Positions 1,717 to 28,341 of a stretch of 36,261 nt of DNA are shown piece by piece; the stretch's first letter is position 1, and every line of letters starts with the position of its first letter. Source of the stretch: Gudongella sp. GTDB lineage: Bacteria; Bacillota; Clostridia; Tissierellales; Tissierellaceae. The translations under genes were made by a program, and so were the position numbers. The notes below the pieces were generated by a model. The model ran no database searches and had not been told where the DNA came from. It worked only from the letters and a program-made list of their open reading frames with translations. The stretch covers positions 1 to 36,261 of the forward strand of contig JANKMX010000019.1 in NCBI GenBank assembly GCA_024649995.1, written 5' to 3'.

Positions 1717-1790
1717 TTTCACTACTCCTTTTCATATGTAATTGAATTATGTATATGGCTCGCTGGGCATCAAAACCCATCATCTAGAAT

Positions 1791-3765: not shown

Positions 3766-4704
3766 TCAAAGTTGGTTTACAATATACCGTGGTTTTAATC
3801 CTGATGAGACCAAATTTATCTCTTCTACAGCTGTATTTCCCATTCTAATAAGTGCTTCTTCCGTGGCAGCCCCAATGTGTGGAGTTCCGATAAAATTATC
3901 CAGACTTAGAAGTGGATTATCTGCCTTAGGTGGCTCTACCTCAAAAACATCCATGGCAACATACATTTTTGGATTATTCGAAAGTGCCTTATACAAAGCT
4001 TTTTCGTTTACAATTCTTCCTCTAGCTGTATTCACTAAAATTGATGATTCCTTCATCACACCAAGCTCTTCCTCATCTATAAGGTTTATTGTCGAATCAG
4101 TAAGGGGTACTGATATGGAAACTACATCAACATCCTTAAGCATGTCCAAAAGATTATCGTACTTTTTGAAACCGAATTCATTAGCTTTCTTTTCTGACAT
4201 AAACGGATCAAAACAGCTGACCTCCATACCAAAGCCATCACGCAATATTGTGCCAATCCTCTGGCCTATTCTTCCTGCACCAATTAAACCTACAATTTTC
4301 CCAGTTAACTCAATTCCGGTTAACTCCTTTGGTGCCAAAGTATCTATGCCTTGTCTAGTCAGGCGATCACTCATGGTGATCTTTCTGGCGCAACTAAGCG
4401 CAAGGGTTACAGCAAGTTCTGCTACGGAATTCATATTAGCAGTCGGAGTGTTTGTCACGAAAATGCCCTTCTCCTTTGCATAGTCTAGATCAATATTATC
4501 CGTTCCAATACCATGTTTAGCAATTATTTTAAGATTCGGCATTTCATCTATTAGTTCTTTACTTACAGTCTTAGTTCTGACAATTATTGCTTCCGCATCC
4601 TCATACTCTTTTATTCCATCCTCATTCCAGATTATAACATCCCCTGCTTTATGGGCCTCTTCCAGGGGAATCTGGTGTATAGGATCAAATATGTATATTC
4701 TCAT
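3766..4704 (-). CDS. D-2-hydroxyacid dehydrogenase (first of four)
   Basis: A 312-residue member of the D-isomer 2-hydroxyacid dehydrogenase family, which reversibly reduces 2-oxoacids with NAD(P)H. The full catalytic triad is present: R228 in NTARG, E257 in DVFEVEP and H276 in TPHIGA. The Rossmann motif is GAGRIG (142-147), with Asp166 ending the second strand, which favours NAD over NADP. The substrate-loop sequence KHGIGTDNID resembles phosphoglycerate dehydrogenase and hydroxypyruvate reductase relatives, but no ACT regulatory domain is present. It is the last gene of the tct operon, 15 bases after tctA. AGGAG precedes the ATG. The substrate is unknown and is probably linked to what TctABC imports. 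Confidence 0.85.
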   Translation of the reverse strand: MRIYIFDPIHQIPLEEAHKAGDVIIWNEDGIKEYEDAEAIIVRTKTVSKELIDEMPNLKIIAKHGIGTDNIDLDYAKEKGIFVTNTPTANMNSVAELAVTLALSCARKITMSDRLTRQGIDTLAPKELTGIELTGKIVGLIGAGRIGQRIGTILRDGFGMEVSCFDPFMSEKKANEFGFKKYDNLLDMLKDVDVVSISVPLTDSTINLIDEEELGVMKESSILVNTARGRIVNEKALYKALSNNPKMYVAMDVFEVEPPKADNPLLSLDNFIGTPHIGAATEEALIRMGNTAVEEINLVSSGLKPRYIVNQL

Positions 4705-4719
4705 ATTTCCATCTCCTGT

Positions 4720-6261
4720 CTATTCCATATCCCTGTCTTCATCTGAAACCAAACCGTCAAAATCTGCTTTCATTTTAGATTGCAGCTTTTTCATAACAAT
4801 AGGCGCAAACATCGAAACTATTACCAGACCAAACAAGAGTATAGCAATAGGTCTTGAGAAGAAGTAACCTATCATGCTGCCCTTTGATAATACAAGTGCT
4901 CTTCTGTAGTTTGACTCAATCATTGTTCCAAGTATAACACCAAGGATTGTTGGAGCAGTACCAAAACCAGCTTTTCTCATAAAATATCCTAAAAATCCAA
5001 AGAATACCATCACATATACATCAAAAATGCTATTTTGGATGGCATATGAACCTACAACAGACAATCCCAGTATTACAGGACCCAATATTGTCATTGGGAC
5101 TTTTGACAGCTTTACTGCCTGCTTAGAGATGACATATCCAATGAATCCCATGAAAATATTGGCCAAAAGAAATCCGTACATGACTGAATATGTAATATTG
5201 GCATATTTTGTAAACAGCTCGTATCCAGGTGAAAGTCCCTGTATCATTAGTCCACCTAGAAGGATTGCAGCTACTGCACTTCCTGGTATTCCAAGTGTTA
5301 GCAAGGGAATCAGAGCTCCTCCTGTGACTGCGTTATTTGCAGATTCAGCTGCTGCTATACCTTCAACAGCTCCATGCCCAAATCTTTCTGGATGCTTTGA
5401 AGATCTTTTTGCTTCATTATATCCAACCCAAGATCCTATATCCCCACCTGCTCCAGGCAGTATACCTACAAAAACTCCAATTATTGAAGATTTGATAATT
5501 GTAGGTAATATTACTTTAAATTCCTTTAAGGTCGGTAGAAATCTCCCTTTAAGAACTGTATCTGACTCTTCAGTTAAGGAAGTTTTACCCTTTACTATAT
5601 CCTCTGTCATCATCATAACTTGAGAAAGTGAAAACATACCAATCATGGCGGGCACCATAGAGATACCACTTTCAAGAGCTAGTATTCCAAATGTGAATCT
5701 AGGTATCCCACTCATCTGATCAAGACCGATAATTCCAATAAAAAGTCCTAAAATACCTCCCATAAGGCCTTTTACCATTGAATCCCCCGCCAAGCTTCCA
5801 ATTATTGTAAGTCCAAAAACTGCCATGAAAAAGTATTCCAATGGTCCAAACTTAAGTGATACCTGCGCTAGTGGTGGAGCTAGAAATATCAAAGCGAGTG
5901 CTGAAATTGTACCACCAATAACCGATGAGACTGTCGCTATCCCTATTGCCTTGAACCCTTCCCCCTTCTTAGCCATTGCGTAACCATCAATTGCAGTAGC
6001 TGCAGATGCTGGAGTACCAGGTGTATGTAATAATATAGCTGTAATCGATCCACCGTAAACAGCTCCAGTATAAACAGCCGTCAGCATTACCAGGCCAGCG
6101 ATAGGATTCATACCAAATGTCACCGGAATAAGCAGAGCGACTGCCATTGTTGCACTTAATCCTGGAAGGGCTCCCATTATTATGGATACTACCAATCCTA
6201 TGAATAGGGCAACAAGAACATCCAAACTCAATACCATTCCCAATATTTCAATTGCTTGCAT
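4720..6261 (-). CDS. tctA: Tripartite tricarboxylate transporter, large membrane subunit TctA
   Basis: A 513-residue, strongly hydrophobic protein with about 11-12 predicted membrane segments and the TctA signatures: ALPGLSATMAVALLIP near residue 32, YGGSITAILLHTPGTPAS near 69, and GILPGAGGDIGSWVGYNEAKR near 265. TctA is the channel-forming subunit of secondary, binding-protein-dependent carboxylate transporters driven by the ion gradient. The gene starts 16 bases after tctB and is followed after 15 bases by a hydroxyacid dehydrogenase, so transport and metabolism are made together. Family members import citrate, tartrate and other carboxylates; the substrate here is not evident from sequence. 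Confidence 0.95.
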   Translation of the reverse strand: MQAIEILGMVLSLDVLVALFIGLVVSIIMGALPGLSATMAVALLIPVTFGMNPIAGLVMLTAVYTGAVYGGSITAILLHTPGTPASAATAIDGYAMAKKGEGFKAIGIATVSSVIGGTISALALIFLAPPLAQVSLKFGPLEYFFMAVFGLTIIGSLAGDSMVKGLMGGILGLFIGIIGLDQMSGIPRFTFGILALESGISMVPAMIGMFSLSQVMMMTEDIVKGKTSLTEESDTVLKGRFLPTLKEFKVILPTIIKSSIIGVFVGILPGAGGDIGSWVGYNEAKRSSKHPERFGHGAVEGIAAAESANNAVTGGALIPLLTLGIPGSAVAAILLGGLMIQGLSPGYELFTKYANITYSVMYGFLLANIFMGFIGYVISKQAVKLSKVPMTILGPVILGLSVVGSYAIQNSIFDVYVMVFFGFLGYFMRKAGFGTAPTILGVILGTMIESNYRRALVLSKGSMIGYFFSRPIAILLFGLVIVSMFAPIVMKKLQSKMKADFDGLVSDEDRDME

Positions 6262-12561: not shown

Positions 12562-13701
12562 TTATTGAAGCTCTCTTGTCAGTGCTGAAACGCCTTTTCC
12601 TAGAACGTCAACACCCATCCTGTAAAGTGTTCTCTCTATTGCAGTTATTGCACCTGTCAGGTCAAGCATGTCTATGTTGCCCATGTGACCGATCCTAAAC
12701 ATCTTTCCTGCATACGCTCCAAGTCCGCCTGCAACCTGAGCACCTTCCTCTGCAAGAAGTGTTCTGAACTTGGAATCCTCAACTCCTTCAGGATAAAGGA
12801 CGCATGAAAGTGTTACAGCTCTGTTTGAAGGATCAGCAAGGATTGAGAAGCCCATTGCCTCTAAAGCTGCTCTCATTGCCTTGGCAACCTTTCTATGTCT
12901 TTCGTATCTTTCCTCAAGTCCTTCTTCCTTGATCAGTCTGATTGACTCCTGAAGAGCCCAGATCATGTTTACTGCTGGTGTAGCGTAGTACTTTGATGTG
13001 TCGTTCATTATTGGAATCCACTTTTCAAAGTCAATATAGTATTCCTGGATATTACCAAGGGATTTTCTTCTATCAAGTGCCTTTTGGTTTGCCCATAGTA
13101 TTGCAAGTCCTGGTGCAACTCCAAATGCCTTCTGTGATCCTGTAAACAGGATATCTATGTTCATCCTGCCAAGGTATTCCTCTTCCCCGGCTGAAGCTGC
13201 AACACCATCTACGATGTAGATTGTCTCTGGGAACTTCTTCATCATTTCACCTATTTCAGCGATTGGTGCAACTGCTGCAGTTGAAGTGTCAACATGGGTT
13301 ACAGTCATTGCCTGGTAGGTCTTTTCACCAAGCTTCTTCTCGATATCTGCTACAGGAACCGTTTTCCCCCACTCGGATGAAATAACGTCAACATTAAGTC
13401 CCTTTTTCTCCGCTATCTCGATGAACCTGTCTCCAAAGAAGCCGTGTGATACTATAAGAAGATTGTCTCCTCTTTTCAGTGTGTTTGAAAGAGCCATCTC
13501 CATTGCCATTGTTCCTGATCCGGCAACTACAAATACCTCTCCATTGACATCCCAAAGCTCTTTAAGGTCAGTAAGTACTTCCTTGAAATCCTTTACAAAT
13601 CCTGGATCTCCAAATGCTACGGTCTCTCTTCCCATCTGGTCCTGAATTGATCTTACAACAGGTGTCGGTCCCGGAATCATTACCAGTCTTCTGTTTTTCA
13701 T
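12562..13701 (-). CDS. Alanine/serine-glyoxylate aminotransferase (class V, PLP)
   Basis: A 379-residue class V PLP enzyme of the alanine-glyoxylate / serine-pyruvate transaminase group. The PLP lysine is K191 in TGSQKAFGVAPGL, the ring-binding Asp is D165 in YIVDGVAAS, and the phosphate loop is AGSGTMAME (60-68). The opening MIPGPTPV is characteristic. The family transfers amino groups from alanine or serine to glyoxylate, giving glycine plus pyruvate or hydroxypyruvate. Purine-catabolic and phosphonate relatives exist, so the amino donor is not certain. It lies after the GyaR-like reductase on the same strand but has its own perfect promoter. Both would consume glyoxylate or hydroxypyruvate, and ald could regenerate alanine. 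Confidence 0.88.
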   Translation of the reverse strand: MKNRRLVMIPGPTPVVRSIQDQMGRETVAFGDPGFVKDFKEVLTDLKELWDVNGEVFVVAGSGTMAMEMALSNTLKRGDNLLIVSHGFFGDRFIEIAEKKGLNVDVISSEWGKTVPVADIEKKLGEKTYQAMTVTHVDTSTAAVAPIAEIGEMMKKFPETIYIVDGVAASAGEEEYLGRMNIDILFTGSQKAFGVAPGLAILWANQKALDRRKSLGNIQEYYIDFEKWIPIMNDTSKYYATPAVNMIWALQESIRLIKEEGLEERYERHRKVAKAMRAALEAMGFSILADPSNRAVTLSCVLYPEGVEDSKFRTLLAEEGAQVAGGLGAYAGKMFRIGHMGNIDMLDLTGAITAIERTLYRMGVDVLGKGVSALTRELQ

Positions 13702-17439: not shown

Positions 17440-18882
17440 TTAATCATCATCCCTGTCGTCATCATCATCATCATCTTCATCATCATCATCTTCATCATCA
17501 TCGTCATCGTCATCGTCATCGTCGTCGTCATCATCGTCGTCATCGTCGTCGTCATCGTCGTCATAGTAGTCATCAGACTCCACTTCAAAGTCCAGGACCT
17601 TTCCGGTATAGGCATGGATTTCAATCTCATATTCCTTGCCATCCCTAATTATTTCAATTTCATACTCATCGTCATCTGATTCAAACTCAACGATTCTTCC
17701 TCCGCCCACCAGGTTAAGCGCCATGGTTCTTGCCTGGTCAGCTGAGATTCTTTCATTCTGTGCAGGGACTGACGGCTGCTGGACCTGTGGTGGTCCGTCA
17801 CTTGAATCGTCATCGTCATCATCGTCTTCTCTTTCAAGCTCCTCTACTTCTCCAGTTCGGGCATCTATTTCTATTTCATATACCACGCCGTCTTTTCTTA
17901 CCTTGATCTCATACTCGGGATCATCATCGTCATCATCCAGCTCAAGCTTTATGACTTCACCATTCACAAGACCCACAGCTATTCTTCTGGCTTCCTCATT
18001 GGATATGACACTCCTTGGAGAAGATGAATTGTTTGAGCTTCTGTCATCATCGTAATCGTCATCATCGTAATCGTCATCACGTTCAAATTCCTTGACCCTG
18101 CCAGTATAGGCATCTATCTCTATCTCGTATTTTCCTTCCTCTGCAAGTATCTCAACTTCATACTCAGGCCCGTCATCATCATACAGGTCATCAAGCTCAA
18201 TCTTTACAATCTCGCCATCTATCCTGTCAAGGGCAATTCTTTCTGCCTCTTCCCTTGATATGATTGTAGGTGCATCTGATCCTACTTCGACATCTCCCAC
18301 TGCCACTCTAAAGAGACTTTCTATTGGGATATTGTGATCCTTGCTGTAATGGATAAGCTCCCTTACGGTCATTTCTGCAATGTAATCAGCATCCAGATCA
18401 TCATCAAGCTCCTGAAGTCTGCTGGCCGCCAGCTCAACACCGGTAAGCTTCCTGCCATCTTCACTTCTTGCAATTGCCTGGTTCAATACAGTCGCTTCAA
18501 TCTGCTTGTTCTGCAGCATTGCTTGGATTGCCCTGTTGACCCTTTGCACAAGTCTGCTGTCCATTGTGTCATCATCAACTGTTATCATTACGAAGTTGTC
18601 CTCTCCACCTTTAATGTGTCCGGTAAGGATCATCAGGTCCACAAGGTCGTTGACCGTATCCTCCAGGTTCTTGTTCTTGGGATTGAAATCTCTTAACAGC
18701 TCATCGGCATCCTTATTTAAAGGATTGATCTCAACAACCCTGTCAAGTCTGTTGGTTACTATCTCAATGCTTGGGTTCACATCCATGGTCAGGGTGTTGG
18801 CTGGCTGGGTAGCTACAAATCCAACCATCACCATTGCCAGTATAAAAATTGGAAGTGTGTAATAAATCTTTTTAAGTTTCAT
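17440..18882 (-). CDS. Membrane-anchored PepSY protein with RsgI-type ectodomain and acidic tail
   Basis: A 480-residue protein with almost no cytoplasmic part: a few basic residues, then one hydrophobic segment (7-25). Outside lies an RsgI-like ectodomain beginning MDVNPSIEIVTNRLDRVVEINPLN (33-56), then three PepSY-type units (about 208-267, 293-351 and 379-434), each ending in (Y/E)EIEIDAxTGxVxxxE. Asp-rich linkers separate them. The last 44 residues (437-480) are nearly all Asp with a few Glu and Arg. Because it lacks a sigma-binding N-terminus it is probably not itself an anti-sigma factor, but an extra ectodomain, ligand trap or cation-binding surface protein. It follows the anti-sigma gene by 79 bases in one operon. 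AAGGAGGAATAGGAA precedes the ATG. The function is unassigned. Confidence 0.8.
   Translation of the reverse strand: MKLKKIYYTLPIFILAMVMVGFVATQPANTLTMDVNPSIEIVTNRLDRVVEINPLNKDADELLRDFNPKNKNLEDTVNDLVDLMILTGHIKGGEDNFVMITVDDDTMDSRLVQRVNRAIQAMLQNKQIEATVLNQAIARSEDGRKLTGVELAASRLQELDDDLDADYIAEMTVRELIHYSKDHNIPIESLFRVAVGDVEVGSDAPTIISREEAERIALDRIDGEIVKIELDDLYDDDGPEYEVEILAEEGKYEIEIDAYTGRVKEFERDDDYDDDDYDDDRSSNNSSSPRSVISNEEARRIAVGLVNGEVIKLELDDDDDDPEYEIKVRKDGVVYEIEIDARTGEVEELEREDDDDDDDSSDGPPQVQQPSVPAQNERISADQARTMALNLVGGGRIVEFESDDDEYEIEIIRDGKEYEIEIHAYTGKVLDFEVESDDYYDDDDDDDDDDDDDDDDDDDDDDDEDDDDEDDDDDDDRDDD
17452..17570 (-). repeat. Trinucleotide Asp-codon tract in the PepSY protein gene
   Basis: A nearly uninterrupted run of GAT/GAC codons encodes the acidic C-terminal tail. 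Mixed synonymous codons show that the amino acid run is what is kept, though such tracts can still change length by slippage. Confidence 0.85.
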
Positions 18883-18961: not shown

Positions 18962-20127
<1,166 letters not shown>

Positions 20128-20131
<4 letters not shown>

Positions 20132-20718
20132 GCCCTCGCCTCCTTTCCTTCCAGATATTCTCTGAGCTTCTTCAATGCCCTGTGATATTTTGAGAGGGTT
20201 GTGGATAGGTTAAGTCCAAGCCCCTCAGCTATTTCCTTATGCTTCAATCCAGACACTGCGTGGAGCATTACAATCTCCCTCTCCTCCTCTGTGAGGAGTG
20301 ATAGTACCCCTTCCAGGACTATCCGGTCATCCATATCGATAACATATGAGAATCTCCTGTCGTCTTCTACCTCTTCCGGCTCCATGGGGATGCTCCTCTT
20401 ATTCTTCCTGGTATTGGAATAGTGAAGGTTCTTGGCTATTGTAAACATCCAGGCAAGGGGCTTTCCCATTGGCTTGTAAAGATGAGCAGCGGACAGGATC
20501 TTCACGTAGGTATCCTGCATAAGGTCAAGCGCCATCTGATGGTCCCTGGTAAGGGAGACGGAGTATGCATACATTGTCCTCTCAGTAATTGCATACAGCT
20601 CATCAAGGGCAGACATGTCATCCCTGGCAAGCCTCTTGAAGATCTTCTCATCTATATCAATCTCGTTGTTTTGATTTTGTTTTGGTTTGTCGTCATAGAC
20701 AATTGTGAACAGCAGCAT
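20128..20718 (-). CDS. ECF-type RNA polymerase sigma factor
   Basis: A 196-residue sigma-70 family, group 4 (ECF) factor. Region 2 spans about 35-100 (ALDELYAITERTMYAYSVSL, then DLMQDTYVKI and KPLAWMFTIAKN). Region 4 spans about 140-190 (LTEEEREIVMLHAVSGLKHKEIAEGLGL, then STTLSKYHRALKKLREYL). The second ATG at 20718 is preferred to one at 20724 because AAGGAG lies 8 bases upstream of it. The stop overlaps the start of the downstream membrane protein by four bases, pointing to that protein as its anti-sigma partner. It is probably autoregulated; repeated CGTTATTTTT motifs lie upstream. The signal sensed is unknown. Confidence 0.9.
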
Positions 20719-20778
20719 CTCCATAGCTCCTTTGATAGTATAACCTCTGGGGTGGCGGTTTTATTGCATAAGAATATC

Positions 20779-20852
20779 GTTATTTTTCATATCAATATCT
20801 ATACCCAAAATGAAAATAACGCAACGGGACCGGTTCTTTTTGCGTTATTTTT
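20779..20852. promoter_or_regulatory. Three CGTTATTTT-type motifs upstream of the ECF sigma gene
   Basis: CGTTATTTTT occurs at 20779-20788 and 20843-20852, and its near complement GAAAATAACG at 20812-20821. The last two extend to a 12-bp inverted repeat (AAAATAACGCAA with TTGCGTTATTTT, 20813-20824 with 20840-20851). Placement before a sigma operon suggests a regulator-binding or structured leader site. The rest of the 20719-20959 gap holds only the rsgI terminator. Confidence 0.45.
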
Positions 20853-20864
20853 GTTAATAAAAAA

Positions 20865-20892
20865 CAAGGCCCGCCATTAAGACGGGACCTTG
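20865..20892 (-). terminator. Terminator of the sigI-rsgI operon
   Basis: CAAGGCCCGCC (20865-20875) pairs with GACGGGACCTTG (20881-20892), with one mismatch. On the minus strand it is followed by TTTTTTATT. It separates sigI-rsgI from the ECF sigma operon. Confidence 0.88.
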
Positions 20893-20959
20893 CTTTATTT
20901 TGGGTGTGGGGTGGCACACCTTTTTGGGTTTTATCGATATAATTATCGGATTCTACTTA

Positions 20960-21955
20960 TTAGTTGCCAGAGTTTCCTTTGGAGTTGCCTACGCCTTCAG
21001 GTTTTCCTACTCCATCAGGTTTTCCAATATCTTCTGGTCTTCCTGATTCATCCTCAAGCTCTTCATTGCCAGTTCTGACATCATCAGTTGGCTCTACTTC
21101 CTGTTTCTTTAGCTGTCCTGGAGCGAATTGCGATGGATTGTCTTTATCCTCTTTATCTTCTTCCTGGAACTTGACTCCATTCTTTTCTCCTCTGGATGCT
21201 GAGAACTCCTTCATTAATTCCTGCTTTGTCATATTAACATATTTATAAAAATCGTCATTTACATCGCTGCGAGTAACTTTTTCTGGATCATATTCAGTAT
21301 CTTCTACTTCCATTAGATTTGTTATAATATTGTAATGTCCTGGAGTCAAACCTAAAATCTTAGCTCTTTCAACATCCTCAGGACTCAAGCCTTTTACTTC
21401 CATGTTCTCTACCCTGGCTCTTAAACTCTCAATTTCGTCGTCGTCTTTTTCATCTTGAGCTCTTTCGCGAGCTTCTTCAGCTCTTTCTTCTGCTTCTTCT
21501 CTTCTCTCTTCAATCATTTCTTTAATCTCTTCAGCCAGCTTCTCAGCATCTTCCTCGCTGTCTCCCATGGGAGCTATAGCTTCTATATCGTACTTTTCAA
21601 ACAGCTCCTCAAGAAAATCTCTTATATCCTTATTCTCGAATCTTATTTCTTCTCCATTTCTTTCAACACTTGTAACCTCGCCTCTTCTGTTAACACTAAT
21701 CATGAACTCTGCTCCATCTGCTTCTAAAACATTAACTTTATAATCCTCAGCATATACCCATGATCCTGTTCCAACCATTGCGAATATCAAAAGTGCGGCA
21801 ACAATTGGTGCCCATCTTCTGTGTGAAAATATACCTTCCTTCATGTAAATCTCATCTCCTACCGAATAGTTTTTATTGCGGATTTTAGTTACAGATCCAT
21901 CCGCCTTCATAACAACTGCTCTTCCCTTTATTATTTCAAGTATTACTGCCTTCAT
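20960..21955 (-). CDS. rsgI: RsgI-type anti-sigma-I factor
   Basis: A 331-residue single-pass membrane protein. The cytoplasmic N-terminal domain (1-47, MKAVILEIIKGRAVVMKADGS, then GDEIYMKEG) is the RsgI_N fold that holds SigI. The membrane helix is about 48-67. The ectodomain begins YKVNVLEADGAEFMISVNRRGEVTSVERNG. It occupies the place of the usual DINPSIE block but lacks the Asn-Pro pair. An Arg/Glu-rich, probably coiled or disordered stretch (about 130-185) follows, and the C-terminus ends in GKPDGVGKPEGVGN-type low complexity. It starts 2 bases after the sigI stop with its ribosome site inside sigI. No carbohydrate-binding domain is present, unlike cellulolytic clostridial RsgIs. Confidence 0.85.
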   Translation of the reverse strand: MKAVILEIIKGRAVVMKADGSVTKIRNKNYSVGDEIYMKEGIFSHRRWAPIVAALLIFAMVGTGSWVYAEDYKVNVLEADGAEFMISVNRRGEVTSVERNGEEIRFENKDIRDFLEELFEKYDIEAIAPMGDSEEDAEKLAEEIKEMIEERREEAEERAEEARERAQDEKDDDEIESLRARVENMEVKGLSPEDVERAKILGLTPGHYNIITNLMEVEDTEYDPEKVTRSDVNDDFYKYVNMTKQELMKEFSASRGEKNGVKFQEEDKEDKDNPSQFAPGQLKKQEVEPTDDVRTGNEELEDESGRPEDIGKPDGVGKPEGVGNSKGNSGN

Positions 21956-21957
21956 AG

Positions 21958-22614
21958 CTATTCCTCCTTGACATACCGCAGGTACTCTGAAAGATAGGGG
22001 TAATCCCCTGTCAGTATTTCCATTGCAGCTATTATATATTTACGGTGTCTTTCTATGGTTTTTCGGGGTAGGTTGAGATTTTCTTCAATATTTTTTATGG
22101 GTAGGGATCCTGTCCTTCTAATTTCAATTGTCAAATCGCGATCCTTAATAAGGTAAAGGAGTATTTGTTTGCATGCTTTTTTTGTCTTTTCAGCCTTGGG
22201 GGAGTTCTTGGCAATGTCTGAGAAGCTTAGGCCATATTCCCTTAGGGCTTCTCCAAGGGCGTGGATTTCCAGCCTCAGGTCGTCATTGTAGCCTGTGTCC
22301 TGGACATCATTGTACATGTCCTCAGTATGTACATCTGCTGCCTGTCTTCCGTTTGTCCTGAACCAGTCGATCAGCCTGCTTCGAATTATCATTCCAGCAT
22401 AGGACAGGAAGCTTCCCTTTGTTGGATCATACTTTTCTATAGCCTCCGTAAAGCCAAGAAGGGCAATGGACCACTCATCGTCTGCCTTTGTAACAAATCG
22501 TCTGGAGGCCTTGGAGGCTGACTTTAGGATAAACGCCTCATGAACCCTGATAAAATCCTCAAGCTTCCTCTGATCTCCCCGTATTTCCCATATGGTTTTT
22601 TCCCAGTCTGCCAT
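21958..22614 (-). CDS. sigI: RNA polymerase sigma factor SigI
   Basis: A 218-residue sigma factor of the SigI family. Region 2 reads DDEWSIALLGFTEAIEKYDPTKGSFLSYAGMIIRSRLIDWFR (about 46-87). The C-terminal helix-turn-helix of the SigI type reads RTGSLPIKNIEENLNLPRKTIERHRKYIIAAMEIL (about 166-200). It is somewhat shorter than the roughly 250-residue Bacillus form. It forms a two-gene operon with rsgI, the conserved arrangement in which RsgI sequesters SigI at the membrane until an outside signal frees it. Known members respond to heat, envelope stress or polysaccharides. A ribosome site is weak (AAGGAT). I could not identify a SigI-type promoter before it. Confidence 0.9.
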   Translation of the reverse strand: MADWEKTIWEIRGDQRKLEDFIRVHEAFILKSASKASRRFVTKADDEWSIALLGFTEAIEKYDPTKGSFLSYAGMIIRSRLIDWFRTNGRQAADVHTEDMYNDVQDTGYNDDLRLEIHALGEALREYGLSFSDIAKNSPKAEKTKKACKQILLYLIKDRDLTIEIRRTGSLPIKNIEENLNLPRKTIERHRKYIIAAMEILTGDYPYLSEYLRYVKEE

Positions 22615-22786: not shown

Positions 22787-23866
22787 TTACAAGACAGATG
22801 AAACGTCCCCGCGTCGCAAGCTGCAGATCTCCTCCAGCTCCTCCAGGGTTCCCTTGTTTATCAATATGCCATTCTCCATCCTGTCCCTCATGGCCTCTGC
22901 TTCCTTCTCGCCGTGGGTGTATATCCTTTGGGCTCCCTGTGCCTTTTCACTGCTTCTGATCTCCTGTAGATATGCTGACAGATGATTCCTTATGTCCTCC
23001 CTGTCTCCAAACATTCCGGGATCTATTGCAACAAAGCCGTGGCTACAGCCATCTACTCCATCCCTCAGACAATAGTTGCTTGTCATTCCCATGGCCATAA
23101 TGGAGGAGAAGATTTCAGCAATCATTCCGTAGCCGTAGCCCTTGTGACCACCATGTACCTCTCCGGAACCGCCGATTGGAAGGATTCCGCCGCCCTTCTT
23201 CTCTGCAATGTTTTCTATTACCTTGGCTGCATTATCAGTTCCTTGACCCTTTTCATCGATTGTCCAGCCTTCTGGTAGTGGCTTATCCAGCTTCTTGTAC
23301 ACCTCAAGCTTGCCGTGGGTAACAACCGTTGTGGATGCGTCAAAGAAAAAATCATGTGGATGGGCAGGCATGGCACAAGCAATTGGGTTGCTGCCGATCA
23401 TGGGCAGCCTTCCAAAGGTTGGAACCATTATGGCACCGCTGTTTGTAAAGGAAAGTCCAAGAATCCCCTTGTCACTTGCCATTTTTGCATAGTATCCAGC
23501 TATTCCGAAATGGTTTGAGTTTTTAACAACAACCATTCCCATACCTGACTTTTCAGCCTTGTCTATTGCCATTGACATGCCCTTGTGGGCAGCAAGCTGA
23601 CCCATGGCTGATCTTGCATCAATTGTTGCGGATAGGGGAGTCTCAAAGAGGACCTCAGGCTCCACACCCACCTTCATCATTCCACTCTTTATTCCATTGT
23701 GATACATTGCCATCCTCTGCACTCCATGGCTCTCTATCCCGTAAAGGTCGGAAAGTAGAATCACATCTGTGATGATTTTACTTTCATCCTTTGTAAAACC
23801 AACCCTTGCAAAGGACTCTTCACACAGCTCTCTCAATAGTTCATGTCCCACTCTGTAGTAGCTCAT
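22787..23866 (-). CDS. Ldh2-family NAD(P)-dependent 2-hydroxyacid dehydrogenase
   Basis: A 359-residue member of the malate/L-lactate/L-sulfolactate/ureidoglycolate dehydrogenase (Ldh2) family, whose fold is unrelated to classical Rossmann lactate dehydrogenases. Conserved family elements are ESHGVQRM (H47, R51), the NSNHFG loop (H119), the SFTNSGAIMVP stretch (about 139-149) and GSNPIACAMP. It lies 49 bases after the transporter ATPase with no terminator between, so it is probably co-transcribed from the Phe-type T-box unit. This suggests, but does not show, that it reduces or oxidises a 2-oxo/2-hydroxy acid derived from an aromatic amino acid, such as phenylpyruvate. AGGAGG lies before the ATG. 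Confidence 0.85.
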   Translation of the reverse strand: MSYYRVGHELLRELCEESFARVGFTKDESKIITDVILLSDLYGIESHGVQRMAMYHNGIKSGMMKVGVEPEVLFETPLSATIDARSAMGQLAAHKGMSMAIDKAEKSGMGMVVVKNSNHFGIAGYYAKMASDKGILGLSFTNSGAIMVPTFGRLPMIGSNPIACAMPAHPHDFFFDASTTVVTHGKLEVYKKLDKPLPEGWTIDEKGQGTDNAAKVIENIAEKKGGGILPIGGSGEVHGGHKGYGYGMIAEIFSSIMAMGMTSNYCLRDGVDGCSHGFVAIDPGMFGDREDIRNHLSAYLQEIRSSEKAQGAQRIYTHGEKEAEAMRDRMENGILINKGTLEELEEICSLRRGDVSSVL

Positions 23867-23915: not shown

Positions 23916-24707
23916 CTATGAAAGCAGCATCCTGTCATCAATAAGTCTCCTGCTGCTTTTTGCCCTGTAGCTTTCCAGCAGCTTCTCCATGGTCATATTT
24001 TCCCTTTCATCTCCGGCAATATCCAATATGACCCTTCCGTCATCCATCATGATTGTCCTGTTTCCAACCGTCAGGGCCATCTGGATATCATGTGTGATCA
24101 TAAGGGTGGTTATGGACTTCAGGGATACTATCCTTTGGGTGATTTCTATGATCTTCCTGGCGTTCACAGGGTCCAGGGCTGCAGTGTGCTCATCCAGAAG
24201 CAGGAGCTTTGGTGATGCTATTGTGCACATCAATAAGGTCACCGCCTGTCTCTGCCCTCCGGAAAGCTTGCCTACAGGGGTTTTCATCCTGTCCTCAAGT
24301 CCCAGATCCAGTGATGACAGAAGCTCCCTGTAGTATTTCAGGTCCTTCCTGTTTGTGGCAAAGATTCCACCCTTGGATCTTCTCCCGTAGGCCAGTGCCA
24401 GATTTTCCTCGATTGTAAGTGTGGGGGCAGTCCCCTTCAGGGGATCCTGTTTAAGCACTCCAAGATCCCTTGCCCTTGTGTGCTCAGGCAATCCAGTCAG
24501 GTCAACACCATCAAGGCATATGGACCCTTCATCCAACCGATACCTTCCTCCAATGGCATTGAACAGGGTTGATTTTCCTGCTCCGTTTGACCCGACTATT
24601 GTCACAAAGTCCCCTTTATCCAAGCTAAGGTTCAGTCCCTTAAGGGCCTTCTTTTCTCCAATTGTCCCCTTTTCAAATGTAAGTTGCAGATTTTCAAGCT
24701 TCAGCAT
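23916..24707 (-). CDS. ABC transporter ATPase, aromatic amino-acid uptake (TrpZ-like)
   Basis: A 263-residue nucleotide-binding subunit. Walker A is GSNGAGKS (39-46), the signature is LSGGQ (148-152), Walker B is LLLLDE (168-173), and the switch His is in MITHD. The ARDLGVLKQDPLKGTAPTLTIEENLALA stretch holds the Q-loop and is typical of ATPases paired with the ABC_sub_bind (TrpX-like) receptors. It follows the permease by 36 bases in the operon. One ATPase and one permease serve two receptor genes, so both receptors probably dock on the same transporter. Confidence 0.93.
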   Translation of the reverse strand: MLKLENLQLTFEKGTIGEKKALKGLNLSLDKGDFVTIVGSNGAGKSTLFNAIGGRYRLDEGSICLDGVDLTGLPEHTRARDLGVLKQDPLKGTAPTLTIEENLALAYGRRSKGGIFATNRKDLKYYRELLSSLDLGLEDRMKTPVGKLSGGQRQAVTLLMCTIASPKLLLLDEHTAALDPVNARKIIEITQRIVSLKSITTLMITHDIQMALTVGNRTIMMDDGRVILDIAGDERENMTMEKLLESYRAKSSRRLIDDRMLLS

Positions 24708-24743: not shown

Positions 24744-25643
24744 CTATCCCACGTATTCCTTGATGTGCTTGACCATTGACCTTCTCTTTCTGGTTGATGC
24801 CTTATCCCTTAAGACCTTCTTCACATAGGGTCCGGAAAGGGCAAGCATTACAACCACGGCTGAAATCAGCTTTAGGGAATAGGGTGGGAAAAGGTCCACC
24901 TTAAGGGCAAATGCAATTATTACCCTGTAAATTATTGAGCCACCAACTGCTGTGAACAATCCGTAGGCTACTCCCCTCCTGCCCAGAAGAACCTCACCGA
25001 TTATGACAGAGGCAAGACCGATCACCACAATTCCAGCCCCTGATCCCACATCTGAAAACAGCTGGTACTGGGCAATAAGCCCTCCTGAAAGTGCAACCAA
25101 ACCATTCCCTATCGCCAGGGCCAAGCATTTTGTCCTGTCTGCATCTATTGAAGCCGCCCTAACCATTTCCTCGTTATCTCCAGTTCCCCTGATGGCCAAT
25201 CCAACCCTTGTCCTGAAGAAGGTCCCAATTATTGCAGCTGTTGAAATTGCAAGCACCAGGGCGACCAGGGTCTTGCTTCCCACCATGGTGAATATGGTGT
25301 CATTCCCAAGTATGGACATGTTGGCCTTTCCACCCATTATGGACAGGTTTACTGTATAGAGACCCGTCATTACAATGATTCCTGAAAGTATTGGATTTAT
25401 CATAAGCTTGGTTTGAAGAAGACCGGTGCATGCCCCTGCAAGAGCTCCTGCAAGAATTGCTGCTGCAAGCCCAAGGACCGGGTCTCCCCCAACTGTGAAA
25501 ACAGCTGTTACGGCCATTCCCAGCACAAAGCTTCCCTCAACCGTAAGATCAGGAATGTTGAGAATCCTGAAGGTTGTGTATACCCCAAGGGCCAGTATCC
25601 CATATATCAGTCCAAGCTCCATGGACCCGATTAAAAGTGTCAT
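24744..25643 (-). CDS. ABC transporter permease, aromatic amino-acid uptake (TrpY-like)
   Basis: A 299-residue membrane protein with about 8 hydrophobic segments, of the branched-chain-amino-acid-type permease family (BPD_transp_2). LGVYTTFRILNIPDLTVEGSFVLGMAV near the N-terminus and GLAIRGTGDNEEMVRAASIDADRTKCLALAIGNGLVALSGGL (about 168-209) are diagnostic; the second is the cytoplasmic coupling loop that contacts the ATPase. It starts 20 bases after the first receptor gene. Being downstream of the Phe-specifier T-box, its expression should rise mainly when charged tRNA-Phe is low. Confidence 0.92.
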   Translation of the reverse strand: MTLLIGSMELGLIYGILALGVYTTFRILNIPDLTVEGSFVLGMAVTAVFTVGGDPVLGLAAAILAGALAGACTGLLQTKLMINPILSGIIVMTGLYTVNLSIMGGKANMSILGNDTIFTMVGSKTLVALVLAISTAAIIGTFFRTRVGLAIRGTGDNEEMVRAASIDADRTKCLALAIGNGLVALSGGLIAQYQLFSDVGSGAGIVVIGLASVIIGEVLLGRRGVAYGLFTAVGGSIIYRVIIAFALKVDLFPPYSLKLISAVVVMLALSGPYVKKVLRDKASTRKRRSMVKHIKEYVG

Positions 25644-25663: not shown

Positions 25664-26641
25664 CTAATTTCCTACCTTAACAAATCCATCTTCAAGCTCA
25701 TGTGGTATTGATATGTTTAGCCTCTCTGCTATTTCAACATTTATGACATTGGCGTATTCCGATACGGTTTCAACTGGATTGTCCCCGATGGCTTCTCCAT
25801 TGATTATCCTGCCAATCATCCTACCGGTCTGTTCCCCAAGAAGGTTGTAGTCGATTCCCACCGTTGCCAGTCCCCCATCTGCAACCATTGAGTCGGCTCC
25901 AACATATATTGGCAGACCAGCCTCTGTGGCAATCTGTGAATAGGTGGCCATTGCCGAGGCAACCATATTGTCGTTGGGGGTGAAATATGCATCCACCTCT
26001 CCAGCCAGGGATGCAACTGCCTGTTGGATGTCAGCGGTTGATGTTATGGTCACTTCCTTGTAGGGAATGCCTTGTGCATCACAGTAGGCCTTTGTATTCT
26101 CTATGCTTGCAGCTGAGTTGATTTCACTGCTATTGTAAAGGAATCCGTAGGTCTGGACCTGAGGGGTCAACACCTTTGAAAGCTCAATTATATCCTGAAC
26201 GGGAATTGAGTTTGAAACCCCTGTAACATTCCCCTCGGGGCTGGATGGATCCTTGACCAGACCTGCCTCAACCGGATTGCTTACGGCTGCAAAGACTATT
26301 GGTATGTCAGCTGTCGAGGAAAGCGCCGCCTGGGCTGCCGGAGTTGCGATTGCAACTATTATGTCCACCTCTTCCCCAATCAGGTTCTGGATTATGGACT
26401 GGAGGAGGTTCATATCCCCGTTTGCATTGTCCATTGTAATCTCTACCTGGTCTCCCATTCCAAGCCTCTCCAGCTCCTCCACGATTGAATCCCTGGACCT
26501 GTTAAGGGATGGGTGATCCACAGGCTGCACAATCCCGATCCTGTATTTCCCATCTGTCTCTGCCCCTGAGGACGAAGTACACCCTGTCAATAATCCCAGC
26601 GCCATAATACCTGCCAATAATCCTGCCAACAACTTTTTCAT
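25664..26641 (-). CDS. TrpX-like substrate-binding lipoprotein under a Phe-type T-box
   Basis: A 325-residue receptor of the ABC_sub_bind family (TrpX and the C. difficile tyrosine-binding CD0873 belong here). The signal peptide ends in the lipobox LTGC. The core has IGIVQPVDHPSLNRSRDSI, AIATPAAQAALSS, FAAVSNPVEAGLV, NVTGVSNSIPVQ, YFTPNDNMVASAM and YVGADSMVADGGLATVGIDY, the ligand-cleft blocks of the family. An in-frame extension to 26779 runs into the T-box. The ATG at 26641 with AGGGAGAG upstream is the true start. It is clearly a paralogue of the gene at 26989-27963. The leader specifier predicts phenylalanine as the regulating amino acid; the bound ligand itself is inferred. Confidence 0.9.
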   Translation of the reverse strand: MKKLLAGLLAGIMALGLLTGCTSSSGAETDGKYRIGIVQPVDHPSLNRSRDSIVEELERLGMGDQVEITMDNANGDMNLLQSIIQNLIGEEVDIIVAIATPAAQAALSSTADIPIVFAAVSNPVEAGLVKDPSSPEGNVTGVSNSIPVQDIIELSKVLTPQVQTYGFLYNSSEINSAASIENTKAYCDAQGIPYKEVTITSTADIQQAVASLAGEVDAYFTPNDNMVASAMATYSQIATEAGLPIYVGADSMVADGGLATVGIDYNLLGEQTGRMIGRIINGEAIGDNPVETVSEYANVINVEIAERLNISIPHELEDGFVKVGN

Positions 26642-26696: not shown

Positions 26697-26950
26697 AAAA
26701 AAACCTGCCCTAAAATAAGGACAGATTGTAATCTGCTATACCACCTTATGTTTATATTGAATCTAGAATGCCAACACATTCCTTGCCGTTAATGCCGGCT
26801 TACATCTTGGATACTCGCACCTGTTTAAACAGGCCTTTCGCCTCGCCCTCAGTGGGGAATTTACCGAACAGCATCTCCGCAGGATTTCCACCATCACCTG
26901 CTCTCTATTGGCGCTTGATTCGATTTGACTTCCACTTCATCGGTTTGTTG
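26697..26950 (-). promoter_or_regulatory. T-box riboswitch with UUC (Phe) specifier
   Basis: Minus-strand leader of the 25664-26641 receptor gene. AGAGAG and the apical GCAGG...CCTGC hairpin identify stem I. The specifier position reads TTC (26859-26857). The T-box bulge is TGGT (26743-26740). The antiterminator pairs ATAAGG with CCTTAT and CAGATT with AATCTG. The competing terminator pairs CTGTCCT with AGGGCAG, then seven T (26703-26697). U in the bulge pairs with discriminator A73, as in tRNA-Phe. It is aligned almost base for base with the second T-box, except at the specifier. The base after the specifier is C, less usual than A. It occupies the 348-base space between the two receptor genes. 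Confidence 0.9.
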
Positions 26951-26956
26951 TATTAG

Positions 26957-26985
26957 ATTATATGGGCTGAAATTATCAATGTCAA
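26957..26985 (-). promoter_or_regulatory. Consensus promoter of the Phe-type T-box unit
   Basis: TTGACA (26985-26980), 17 bases, TATAAT (26962-26957): a perfect sigma-A promoter starting 4 bases after the stop codon of the upstream receptor gene. The second receptor unit has an identical arrangement. Confidence 0.92.
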
Positions 26986-26988
26986 GAA

Positions 26989-27963
26989 TTATTTGTAAAT
27001 TAAGATAAAATCATCTCTAATCTCCTTTGTAAGGTTGATGTTCAGGGCTTTTGCAGTGTCCATATTTATCATGTTGGAGTATTCAGCTATCTGCTCAACA
27101 GGATTTTCCGCTATGGACTCTCCCTCCATAATTCTCGTAATCAAACTGCCAGTCTGCCTTCCAAGAAGGGTATAGTCTATTCCAACGGTGGCCAGTCCAC
27201 CATCCTTGACCATTGAATCCGCACCAACATAAATTGGGATCCCTGCCTCCGTGGCCAGGTCCACATAGGTTGGCATGGCGGATGCGACTGTGTTGTCGTT
27301 GGGTGTGAAGAATGCATCCACCTCTCCCACAAGGGATGAGACTGCCTGATGAATATCTGCAGTGCCGGTTATTGTAGCCTCCCTGTATGTCAGTCCCCTT
27401 TCATCAAGGTATTCCTTGGCCCTCTGGATTCCAGTGGTTGAGTTGATCTCACTGCTGTTGTAGACAAGGCCGTAGTTCTTTGCATCCGGAGTCAGCCTTT
27501 GTGACATCTGGAGGATGTCCTGAACCGGTATTGAGTTTGAGACCCCTGTGATGTTTTCTTCTGTCTCCGAAAAGCTTTTAACCAGTCCAGCCTCCACGGG
27601 GTTGCTCACTGCTGAGAAAACTATTGGAACATTTTCTGTTGCAGCCCTTGCAGCCTGGGCTGTGGGTGTTGCTATTGGTACAATCATGTCCATTCCTTCC
27701 CCCACCAGGTTTTGCATGATTGACTGGAGAAGGTTCATGTCCCCATTTGCGTTGTGGAAGGAAAGCTCAATGCTTTCCCCCAATTCCGAATCAGCCAGCT
27801 CCCCTTGGATCGAATCCCTGATTTCATTTAGGGATGGGTGATCCACGTGCTGAACGATCGCAATTTTGTAGCTTCCCACTCTTGCAGCCGATTCCCTTGC
27901 GCACCCTCCCAATAGTCCAACAACCAGCGCTCCTGCCATAAGTAATGCCAACATCCTTTTCAT
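26989..27963 (-). CDS. TrpX-like substrate-binding lipoprotein under a Trp-type T-box
   Basis: A 324-residue ABC_sub_bind receptor. The lipobox is LGGC. Blocks match the sister gene: IAIVQHVDHPSLNEIRDSI, PIATPTAQAARAATENVPIVF, SAVSNPVEAGLV, NITGVSNSIPVQ, FFTPNDNTVASAM and YVGADSMVKDGGLATVGIDY. The ATG at 27963 follows AAAGGAGAG; a longer frame to 28047 lies in the leader. Differences from the paralogue are spread through the N-lobe (PVDHP versus HVDHP) and C-terminus. No terminator follows except the T-box of the next unit, so transcripts can run on into it. Regulation by tRNA-Trp is predicted from the leader and matches the known TrpX role in tryptophan uptake. Confidence 0.9.
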   Translation of the reverse strand: MKRMLALLMAGALVVGLLGGCARESAARVGSYKIAIVQHVDHPSLNEIRDSIQGELADSELGESIELSFHNANGDMNLLQSIMQNLVGEGMDMIVPIATPTAQAARAATENVPIVFSAVSNPVEAGLVKSFSETEENITGVSNSIPVQDILQMSQRLTPDAKNYGLVYNSSEINSTTGIQRAKEYLDERGLTYREATITGTADIHQAVSSLVGEVDAFFTPNDNTVASAMPTYVDLATEAGIPIYVGADSMVKDGGLATVGIDYTLLGRQTGSLITRIMEGESIAENPVEQIAEYSNMINMDTAKALNINLTKEIRDDFILIYK

Positions 27964-28024
27964 CCTGCATCTCTCCTTTTGTTTTGTTAGATTTTTTGTA
28001 TTGGCACTCAGGCAGGCACCTGCA

Positions 28025-28306
28025 AAAAACAAAAAATCCGTCCTCAAAAATAAGGACAGATTGAATCTGCTATGCCACCTTAAGTATTATAATGGACCGC
28101 TCCCAAATTTCACGGAGCGATTTTCATCCTGGAATGCCAACACATCCCTTGCCGTTAATGCCGGCCTACAGCTTGGATACTCGAAACTTTCTTTCACCTC
28201 GCCCTCAGTGGTCCATTTGCCGAACAGCATCTCCGCAGGATTTCCACCATCACCTGCTCTCTTTTGGCGCTTGATTCGGTTTGATTTCCACTTCATCGGT
28301 TTATAG
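28025..28306 (-). promoter_or_regulatory. T-box riboswitch with UGG (Trp) specifier
   Basis: Leader of the 26989-27963 receptor gene. Stem I carries AGAGAG and the same apical hairpin as the other T-box. The specifier is TGG (28215-28213), followed by the usual ACC. The bulge is TGGC (28077-28074), whose C pairs with discriminator G73 of bacterial tRNA-Trp. The antiterminator pairs TAAGG with CCTTA and CAGATT with AATCTG. The terminator pairs AATCTGTCCT with AGGACGGATT, then six T (28036-28031). Together with its promoter it accounts for the 424 bases between the MFS and receptor genes. Confidence 0.95.
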
Positions 28307-28312
28307 TTACAG

Positions 28313-28341
28313 ATTATATGGCTTATAAAATTTATTGTCAA
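28313..28341 (-). promoter_or_regulatory. Consensus promoter of the Trp-type T-box unit
   Basis: TTGACA (28341-28336), 17 bases, TATAAT (28318-28313), identical in both hexamers and spacing to the promoter of the Phe-type unit. Transcription would start just before the conserved leader. Confidence 0.92.

Follow-up and report, generated by a model that had tools for sequence, protein, structure and literature searches.

Predicted tRNA-Trp and tRNA-Phe T-box leaders before two related ABC_sub_bind receptors in a Gudongella draft genome

Introduction

What does it mean when two receptor genes of one transport locus stand behind T-box leaders that are near copies of each other and carry specifiers for different amino acids? 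T-box specifiers serve to guess the cargo of transporters (PMC2494555), and numerous duplications and specificity changes have been described for T-boxes (Sun 2013, PMC3766115, citing Vitreschak 2008). The question is raised by a stretch of 36,261 nucleotides from Gudongella sp. (contig JANKMX010000019.1 of assembly GCA_024649995.1; the whole stretch is called the window), which belongs to a draft genome of 2.55 Mb in 116 contigs, 97% complete (G000). On its minus strand, two units, each made of a consensus-type promoter, a T-box leader and a lipoprotein receptor of the ABC_sub_bind family, precede a single permease gene and a single ATPase gene (Table 1). The leader of receptor 1 has the tryptophan (Trp) triplet TGG at its specifier and that of receptor 2 the phenylalanine (Phe) triplet TTC; they are referred to below as the Trp and Phe leaders. 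Judged from its sequence, the locus is best explained as an aromatic-amino-acid uptake system in which two T-box/receptor cassettes share one permease-ATPase pair. Regulation of the two units by two different tRNAs is likely, a statement that does not extend to the substrates of the two receptors.

Two near-copy leaders with different specifiers

Both leaders match the T-box model RF00230 over its full length (model positions 1-219; cmscan with permissive limits, E 1.1e-11 for the Trp and 1.2e-12 for the Phe leader). The covariance alignment sets the specifiers at the triplets named in the first-pass annotation, TGG at 28215-28213 and TTC at 26859-26857 on the minus strand, and the letters and coordinates given there are exact. 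In both leaders the triplet lies one base 5' of the CC of the specifier-loop closing helix. The bulges that read the tRNA acceptor end differ in their last base, TGGC at 28077-28074 against TGGT at 26743-26740, again exactly as annotated. The description of the leaders as near copies through stem I holds as well, with 91 of 95 positions identical outside the specifier and the base that follows it. Within those four positions three differ (GGA to TCC), a concentration with a hypergeometric P of ~9e-4 if sites are independent. In an alignment of 12 leaders of the receptor clade, 15 of the 42 predicted pairs, including several in stem I, have both partners changed in one or more sequences, and the specifier-loop closing helix keeps its pairing through such both-side changes. 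The terminator stems of both leaders start inside the 3' strand of the antiterminator, and the two structures are thus predicted to be mutually exclusive.

The tRNAs of the genome itself agree with this assignment. Its tRNA-Trp(CCA) has G73 and ends in GCCA, and its tRNA-Phe(GAA) has A73 and ends in ACCA; these are the discriminators that had been predicted. The combinations TGG with TGGC and TTC with TGGT are therefore fully Watson-Crick, and the tuning of the leaders to tRNA-Trp and tRNA-Phe is supported at the level of predicted pairing. A shifted frame in the second leader, reading AUU (isoleucine, Ile) or UCC (serine, Ser), might be considered, since alternative frames are noted in TBDB for some T-boxes (PMC7778990), and the tRNA-Ile of this genome has A73. 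However, AUU would require a wobble pair with tRNA-Ile(GAU), the UCC frame would set U against G73 of tRNA-Ser(GGA), and the columns that hold TTC contain TGG in the other 11 leaders of the 12-leader alignment, the twin included. A shifted frame is accordingly very improbable.

Specifiers among related receptors

Relatives of the receptors were sampled from 28 genomes of the family, 199 of the order, 391 of the class and 398 of the phylum; score cut-offs were applied, set at 1e-85 in two of the searches for nearest relatives, and part of the listed matches was fetched. After a long frame (L103) and a partial duplicate (L081_2913) had been set aside, 163 further receptor frames were examined. 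A script made 107 specifier calls, of which four were corrected and two removed by eye, and seven were added, giving 112; with the two window receptors the labelled rows number 114, and the 51 of 163 frames with no readable T-box label were left out of the counts. All 112 readable further leaders are of Trp, Phe or tyrosine (Tyr) type, the codons of these three amino acids being the only ones that the script sought. The labelled rows comprise 37 Trp, 38 Phe and 39 Tyr, the window included. A quick tree of 121 receptors was built from the 114 labelled and seven unlabelled rows (row L201_735 is a tentative Phe).

The specifiers follow the receptor phylogeny: the labels require 5 changes over the 114 rows, against a mean of 54 in shuffles, a contrast that near-copies inflate. 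The clade of the window receptors holds 35 rows, namely 27 Trp, 7 unlabelled and receptor 2 as the sole Phe; the other labelled leaders in it all read TGG (L133, L136, L142, L168, L169, L173, L174, L102 and 18 of family f19). The other 37 Phe rows stand among the Tyr rows in the opposite half of the quick tree, and the Phe tuning in the window would therefore have arisen independently.

A survey for paired ABC_sub_bind genes with different specifiers, as suggested in the first-pass annotation, recovered 12 linked T-box/receptor pairs in the order (L113-L121, L194, L201 and L210). All 10 that could be fully read differ in specifier, with Phe first and Tyr second; in the remaining two, the first leader is cut at the contig end (L118) or doubtful (L201). 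In 7 of the 12 pairs, the ones for which the retrieved stretch extends far enough, the permease lies 3' of the second receptor. Family f19 differs in that all 5 of the tandem receptor pairs read there have a single Trp T-box per pair; it also has Tyr and Phe leaders, which precede receptors belonging to another clade. All three aromatic specifiers occur before such receptors in at least three other genomes (G021, G026 and G027). The window's own genome has a third ABC_sub_bind gene (contig C48, 20742-21599) behind a T-box whose specifier is TAC (Tyr) and whose bulge is TGGT; a permease-like and an ATPase-like frame come next (unit 20742-22121; L010, L052). Three congeners have one ABC_sub_bind match each, behind TAC.

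The fourth base of the acceptor-reading bulge

It had been argued that two independent tRNA-reading positions, specifier and TGGN base, changed together, but this is weak evidence, as the TGGN base varies among Trp leaders with the specifier fixed. Orthologous Trp leaders of the clade carry C (L133, L142, L168, L169) or T (L136, L173, L174, L102 and the clade's f19 leaders), and TGGC and TGGT alternate under an unchanged TGG inside a single genus, g346 (L171, whose leader is the same as that of L142; L173 and L174). Among the leaders that the script could read for this base and the one after the specifier (5 of the 112 rows could not be), its distribution is not random: all 36 Phe leaders and all 36 Tyr leaders have T. 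Every C belongs to a Trp leader, namely to 3 of the 35 that the script read, to L133 as read by eye and to that of the window. In TBDB, 46% of the Trp T-boxes have U at this bulge position (PMC7778990). A joint change of specifier and TGGN was consequently rejected as a signature: either base is possible in a Trp leader, so the base proves no co-evolution in the twin pair, and the direction of its change there cannot be read.

Points that weigh against a working Phe leader

Several observations weigh against the assignment of the second leader, and in part of both leaders, to functional T-boxes. Neither reaches the RF00230 gathering score of 93 bits (62.3 for Phe, 58.6 for Trp), and a default scan accordingly lists neither, although this score is a curator's cut-off and not a biological feature. 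The genome has 23 RF00230 matches with E <1e-11, 17 of them above the gathering score, and four other matches with E <1e-16 likewise fall below it. In both leaders the antiterminator bulge reads UGGNAUA (28081-28067 and 26747-26733) where the model has UGGNACC, which may lower both scores; orthologous Trp leaders show the same feature (UGGCAUA in L142 and L169, UGGUAUA in L174). In the Phe leader alone, a consensus pair of the helix 3' of stem I (columns 113-143) is disrupted. This leader also has C directly 3' of its specifier (window 26856), a feature that the first-pass annotation does not mention; 102 of the 107 other leaders read have A there. C was otherwise seen at this place in 4 of 36 Phe leaders (L130, L236, L239, L252) and in none of the 35 Trp or 36 Tyr leaders. 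Finally, the Phe leader is known from a single draft genome: an exact-match search for the pattern AAATTCNCCNCNGAGGG in 249 genomes of the order gave one hit, at this leader, and would miss leaders diverged in the fixed letters.

Taken together, the single occurrence, the C 3' of the specifier, the broken pair and the low model score could be read as signs of a decaying T-box whose specifier has drifted and whose TTC is accidental, the more so as degenerate-looking leaders exist before orthologous receptors (L134, L135). This reading is nevertheless quite improbable. Stem I is nearly unchanged from the twin outside the specifier, and the changes are concentrated at the specifier itself; the leader keeps its promoter, bulge and terminator; it outscores the Trp leader; and TTC both matches tRNA-Phe and fits the TGGT bulge.

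As a separate observation, the leaders upstream of the receptor in L134 (~4600-4920) and L135 are degenerate-looking T-boxes with no clear specifier and with a bulge that reads CGGT or is lost. The twin records of these two (L172 and L175) gave no RF00230 match up to E 0.01.

Origin of the two units

The two receptors are 62% identical and are probably sister duplicates, as judged from their sequences. They are sisters in a careful tree of 21 receptors (99/97), and their leaders are sisters in a tree of 12 leaders (97/97). The twin leaders share 87-90% identity with each other and no more than 74%, taken across the full leader, with the others compared. At position 309 both receptors have Asn, and all 32 other clade members in the alignment have Gly. 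These observations, together with the Trp-type leaders of the clade and the separate consensus promoter of each unit, support the earlier proposal that a promoter/T-box/receptor unit was duplicated and one copy re-tuned, and indicate that the duplicated unit was of Trp type; the single permease and ATPase behind both units likewise agree with the shared transporter it had assumed.

Two results tell against the sister relationship. The quick tree leaves the window receptors in an open fork, and in the approximately unbiased (AU) test, non-sister trees with one receptor placed with other orthologs were not rejected (p 0.105 and 0.113). The AU result, and the distribution of relatives given next, would also be compatible with the arrival of the two units by separate horizontal transfers and their joining at one locus, as opposed to duplication within the lineage. 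Among the matches listed for other genomes of the family, no receptor exceeds 40% identity to receptor 2; the closest relatives come from different families, orders and classes (Syntrophomonas, Anaerocolumna and other drafts). The latter distribution suggests that the receptor clade is foreign to the window's family, through horizontal gain or repeated loss. Separate transfers of the two units are nonetheless improbable in view of the support for the receptor pair in the careful tree, the mutual likeness of the leaders and the Asn309 common to both receptors, and duplication of one unit remains the preferred account.

Gene conversion of the leaders was also considered, as they are 87% identical and the receptors 62%. 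It was rejected, since pairs compared within family f19 show a like contrast (leaders 83-95%, receptors 55-66% identical), and so close a match between the twin leaders can arise without recent conversion.

Substrate selectivity of the receptors

Receptors 1 and 2 match PF04392 (ABC_sub_bind) with 244 and 245.1 bits, against a cut-off of 25.9. The only NCBIfam model that they match is TrpX (NF041285), with 299.5 and 297.5 bits; these scores lie below its cut-off of 390, so neither is filed as TrpX. Three solved receptors, CD0873 (Tyr, 6HNI), VC_1101 (Phe, 3LKV) and SP1069 (Trp, 3LFT), are sequence relatives of both, and all three aromatic ligands thus occur among them (PMC6816091). According to the same source, selectivity is set by two positions: Glu with Tyr for tyrosine, Ala with Tyr for phenylalanine and Ala with Gln for tryptophan.

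The two positions, mapped by eye through alignments, correspond to 249 and 265 of receptor 2, and both receptors have Ala249 and Tyr265. These are the residues given for VC_1101 (Phe); the Gln given for SP1069 (Trp) is found in neither. The Phe pattern occurs in 25 of 31 Trp-labelled receptors of a first set (receptor 1 included) and in 0 of 13 other Phe-labelled ones; the remaining Trp-labelled rows include 4 with Glu and Tyr, and none of the 31 has Ala and Gln. Glu with Tyr is present in 22 of 22 Tyr-labelled and in 13 of 14 Phe-labelled receptors of that set, the exception being receptor 2. The two-residue rule was therefore set aside as an uninformative substrate test: it reads both receptors alike and cannot decide between paired re-tuning of leader and pocket and the addition of a second sensor.

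In two clades, a wider comparison found 25 positions that distinguish Phe receptors from Tyr receptors. No clear Phe signature emerged at them in receptor 2, and the sharpest, position 252, is Met in both window receptors. Elsewhere in an order-wide alignment, position 252 (receptor 2 numbering) may be a candidate selectivity position in its own right. It is Gln in Phe-labelled rows of two clades (21 of 22 and 10 of 12) and in the sole Phe-labelled f19 row, and His or Pro in Tyr-labelled rows (22 of 26, 9 of 9 and 4 of 4). All 9 rows of a second Trp clade have Gln as well.

It is quite possible, if somewhat short of an even chance, that the two receptors share one range of aromatic ligands (Trp, Phe or both) and that the second T-box just adds a phenylalanine input, so that regulation was re-tuned and the pocket was not. 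This alternative competes with the substrate step of the proposal only. It is favoured by the Ala249 and Tyr265 of both receptors, a pair assigned to a Phe-binding protein (PMC6816091), by the presence of the same pair in 25 of 27 Trp-labelled receptors of the window clade, and by Met252 in both receptors at what is elsewhere the best Phe/Tyr separator. On the other side, the specifier tracks the receptor clade across the labelled rows, as expected if substrate matches specifier. Receptor 2 also lacks Pro97, which is present in receptor 1 and in 32 of 32 other clade members (25 of 26 in a wider alignment); we know of no role for this position. Moreover, 12 of the 25 Phe/Tyr-separating positions differ between the window receptors, and at positions 131 and 164 the residue is of Phe type in receptor 2 and of Tyr type in receptor 1, although the Trp clade commonly shows these residues too.

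Proposed mechanism and physiological context

In the proposed scheme, an ancestral unit would have consisted of a promoter, a Trp T-box, an ABC_sub_bind receptor, a permease and an ATPase. Duplication would then have given a second T-box/receptor cassette, and the copy adjoining the permease would have been re-tuned from tRNA-Trp to tRNA-Phe by a change of UGG-A to UUC-C, its UGGU bulge fitting A73. Each leader would be transcribed from its own promoter. The uncharged cognate tRNA presumably pairs with the specifier and with UGGN and holds the antiterminator, so that RNA polymerase reads on, and with charged tRNA the terminator would be free to form. Tryptophan shortage would accordingly raise receptor 1, and phenylalanine shortage receptor 2 together with the permease and ATPase; receptor 2 would take up phenylalanine.

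Between receptor 1 and the Phe leader, a terminator scan listed no terminator-like site on the minus strand. A transcript begun at the Trp promoter would continue into the second leader and reach the terminator there, placing the permease under Phe control, and receptor 1 may rely on a basal level of permease or on both shortages together. The linked Phe/Tyr pairs of the order show a like placement where the reading extends to the permease, which follows the Tyr leader there.

No match to prephenate dehydratase was found in this 97% complete draft, and one was found in 14 of 14 control genomes. For trpB, no match exceeded the cut-off of 392 (three weak matches reached at most 36.7 bits), and 13 of 14 controls had one above it. 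The organism may therefore need phenylalanine and tryptophan from outside, and a need for both is suggested by these searches.

Features of the locus and neighbouring genes

Table 1. Positions of the predicted elements of the two T-box/receptor units and the shared transporter genes in the window.
Feature	Position	Strand	Evidence or remark
Trp-unit promoter	28313..28341	-	TTGACA-17-TATAAT, 12/12; consensus match only
T-box leader, tRNA-Trp type	28049..28305	-	RF00230 58.6 bits, E 1.1e-11, model 1-219
Trp specifier TGG	28213..28215	-	aligned with TGG of orthologous leaders
Trp-leader acceptor-reading bulge TGGC	28074..28077	-	predicted to pair with GCCA of tRNA-Trp
Trp-leader intrinsic terminator	28035..28062	-	overlaps antiterminator
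Receptor 1, ABC_sub_bind lipoprotein, Trp T-box	26989..27963	-	PF04392 244 bits; TrpX 299.5 bits
Phe-unit promoter	26957..26985	-	TTGACA-17-TATAAT, 12/12; consensus match only
T-box leader, tRNA-Phe type	26714..26949	-	RF00230 62.3 bits, E 1.2e-12, model 1-219
Phe specifier TTC, then C	26857..26859	-	aligned to TGG of twin and orthologs
Phe-leader acceptor-reading bulge TGGT	26740..26743	-	predicted to pair with ACCA of tRNA-Phe
Phe-leader intrinsic terminator	26702..26727	-	overlaps antiterminator
Receptor 2, ABC_sub_bind lipoprotein, Phe T-box	25664..26641	-	PF04392 245.1 bits; TrpX 297.5 bits
Shared permease BPD_transp_2, directly 3' of receptor 2	24744..25643	-	PF02653 81.2 bits
Shared ATPase ABC_tran	23916..24707	-	PF00005 99.7 bits

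A gene for an Ldh_2-family dehydrogenase (22787-23866, minus strand) lies about 50 nucleotides 3' of the ATPase gene and is perhaps co-operonic with it. Its top NCBIfam model is L-sulfolactate dehydrogenase, below the cut-off, and reduction of aromatic 2-oxo acids may be offered, as a guess, as a candidate role. Further genes of the window include two for RsgI_M/PepSY proteins with long poly-Asp runs (17440-18882 and 18962-20131, minus strand), which adjoin a sigma-70-like gene (20128-20724), and a second such pair at 20960-22614, made of RsgI_N and sigma-70 region 2 proteins. A protein of 530 residues (130-1722, minus strand) carries five FMN_bind domains in tandem (PF04205, 5 stretches). A third perfect TTGACA-17-TATAAT (13800-13772, minus strand) lies upstream of an aminotransferase-like gene (12562-13701).

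Relation to known systems and significance

Among the closest known arrangements is TrpXYZ of Streptococcus suis, a tryptophan ABC importer that is described as having a related receptor, a permease, an ATPase and a Trp T-box acting on transcription (PMC9382623). As presented in that source, TrpXYZ has one receptor and one T-box, whereas the window has two receptors, the second under a Phe T-box; its receptors also lack the Gln said to fix Trp and fall below the NCBIfam TrpX cut-off. Duplication and re-tuning of T-boxes has been described for NSS paralogs under Leu, Trp and Phe T-boxes (Wels 2008, PMC2494555). In the Bacillus cereus group these are likewise paralogous transporters with differing specifiers, Trp and Phe among them, re-tuned after duplication. 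They belong to another transporter family, and the parts of that source concerned with them mention no shared permease; the window differs in having linked receptor cassettes with near-copy leaders before one permease and one ATPase. The linked pairs of the order resemble the locus in their succession of T-box, receptor, T-box and receptor with differing specifiers, but run from Phe to Tyr where the window runs from Trp to Phe, and they belong to a different receptor clade, which points to an independent origin. The novelty first ascribed to the Phe-retuned copy is thus lower than claimed: T-boxes that were duplicated and re-tuned before transporter paralogs have already been published (PMC2494555), and linked pairs whose aromatic specifiers differ are found repeatedly in the order. 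In the literature searched, no description was found of linked, differently tuned T-box/ABC_sub_bind cassettes that share a permease, which is not to claim their absence from print.

As probable sister receptors one specifier switch apart, the two proteins offer a direct test case for guessing substrates from specifiers. If receptor 2 binds phenylalanine and receptor 1 tryptophan, specifier and pocket have shifted together; if not, regulation alone was re-tuned, and annotation from specifiers can be misleading. The survey contributes 114 specifier-labelled receptors. If specifiers name substrates, the two-residue rule fits 22 of 22 Tyr, 1 of 14 Phe and 0 of 31 Trp rows, and its poor fit in the Phe and Trp rows means that better selectivity positions can be sought. 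The locus also raises a regulatory question, namely how a permease behind the second T-box serves receptor 1.

More broadly, and tentatively, aromatic-amino-acid uptake in the order may be modular, with promoter/T-box/receptor cassettes set in line before one permease-ATPase pair, the specifier naming the substrate of each receptor and new substrates being acquired by cassette duplication and joint re-tuning of specifier and pocket. If so, the window would represent an independent recurrence of this process, from Trp to Phe, and a natural experiment on an RNA sensor and a receptor changing specificity together.

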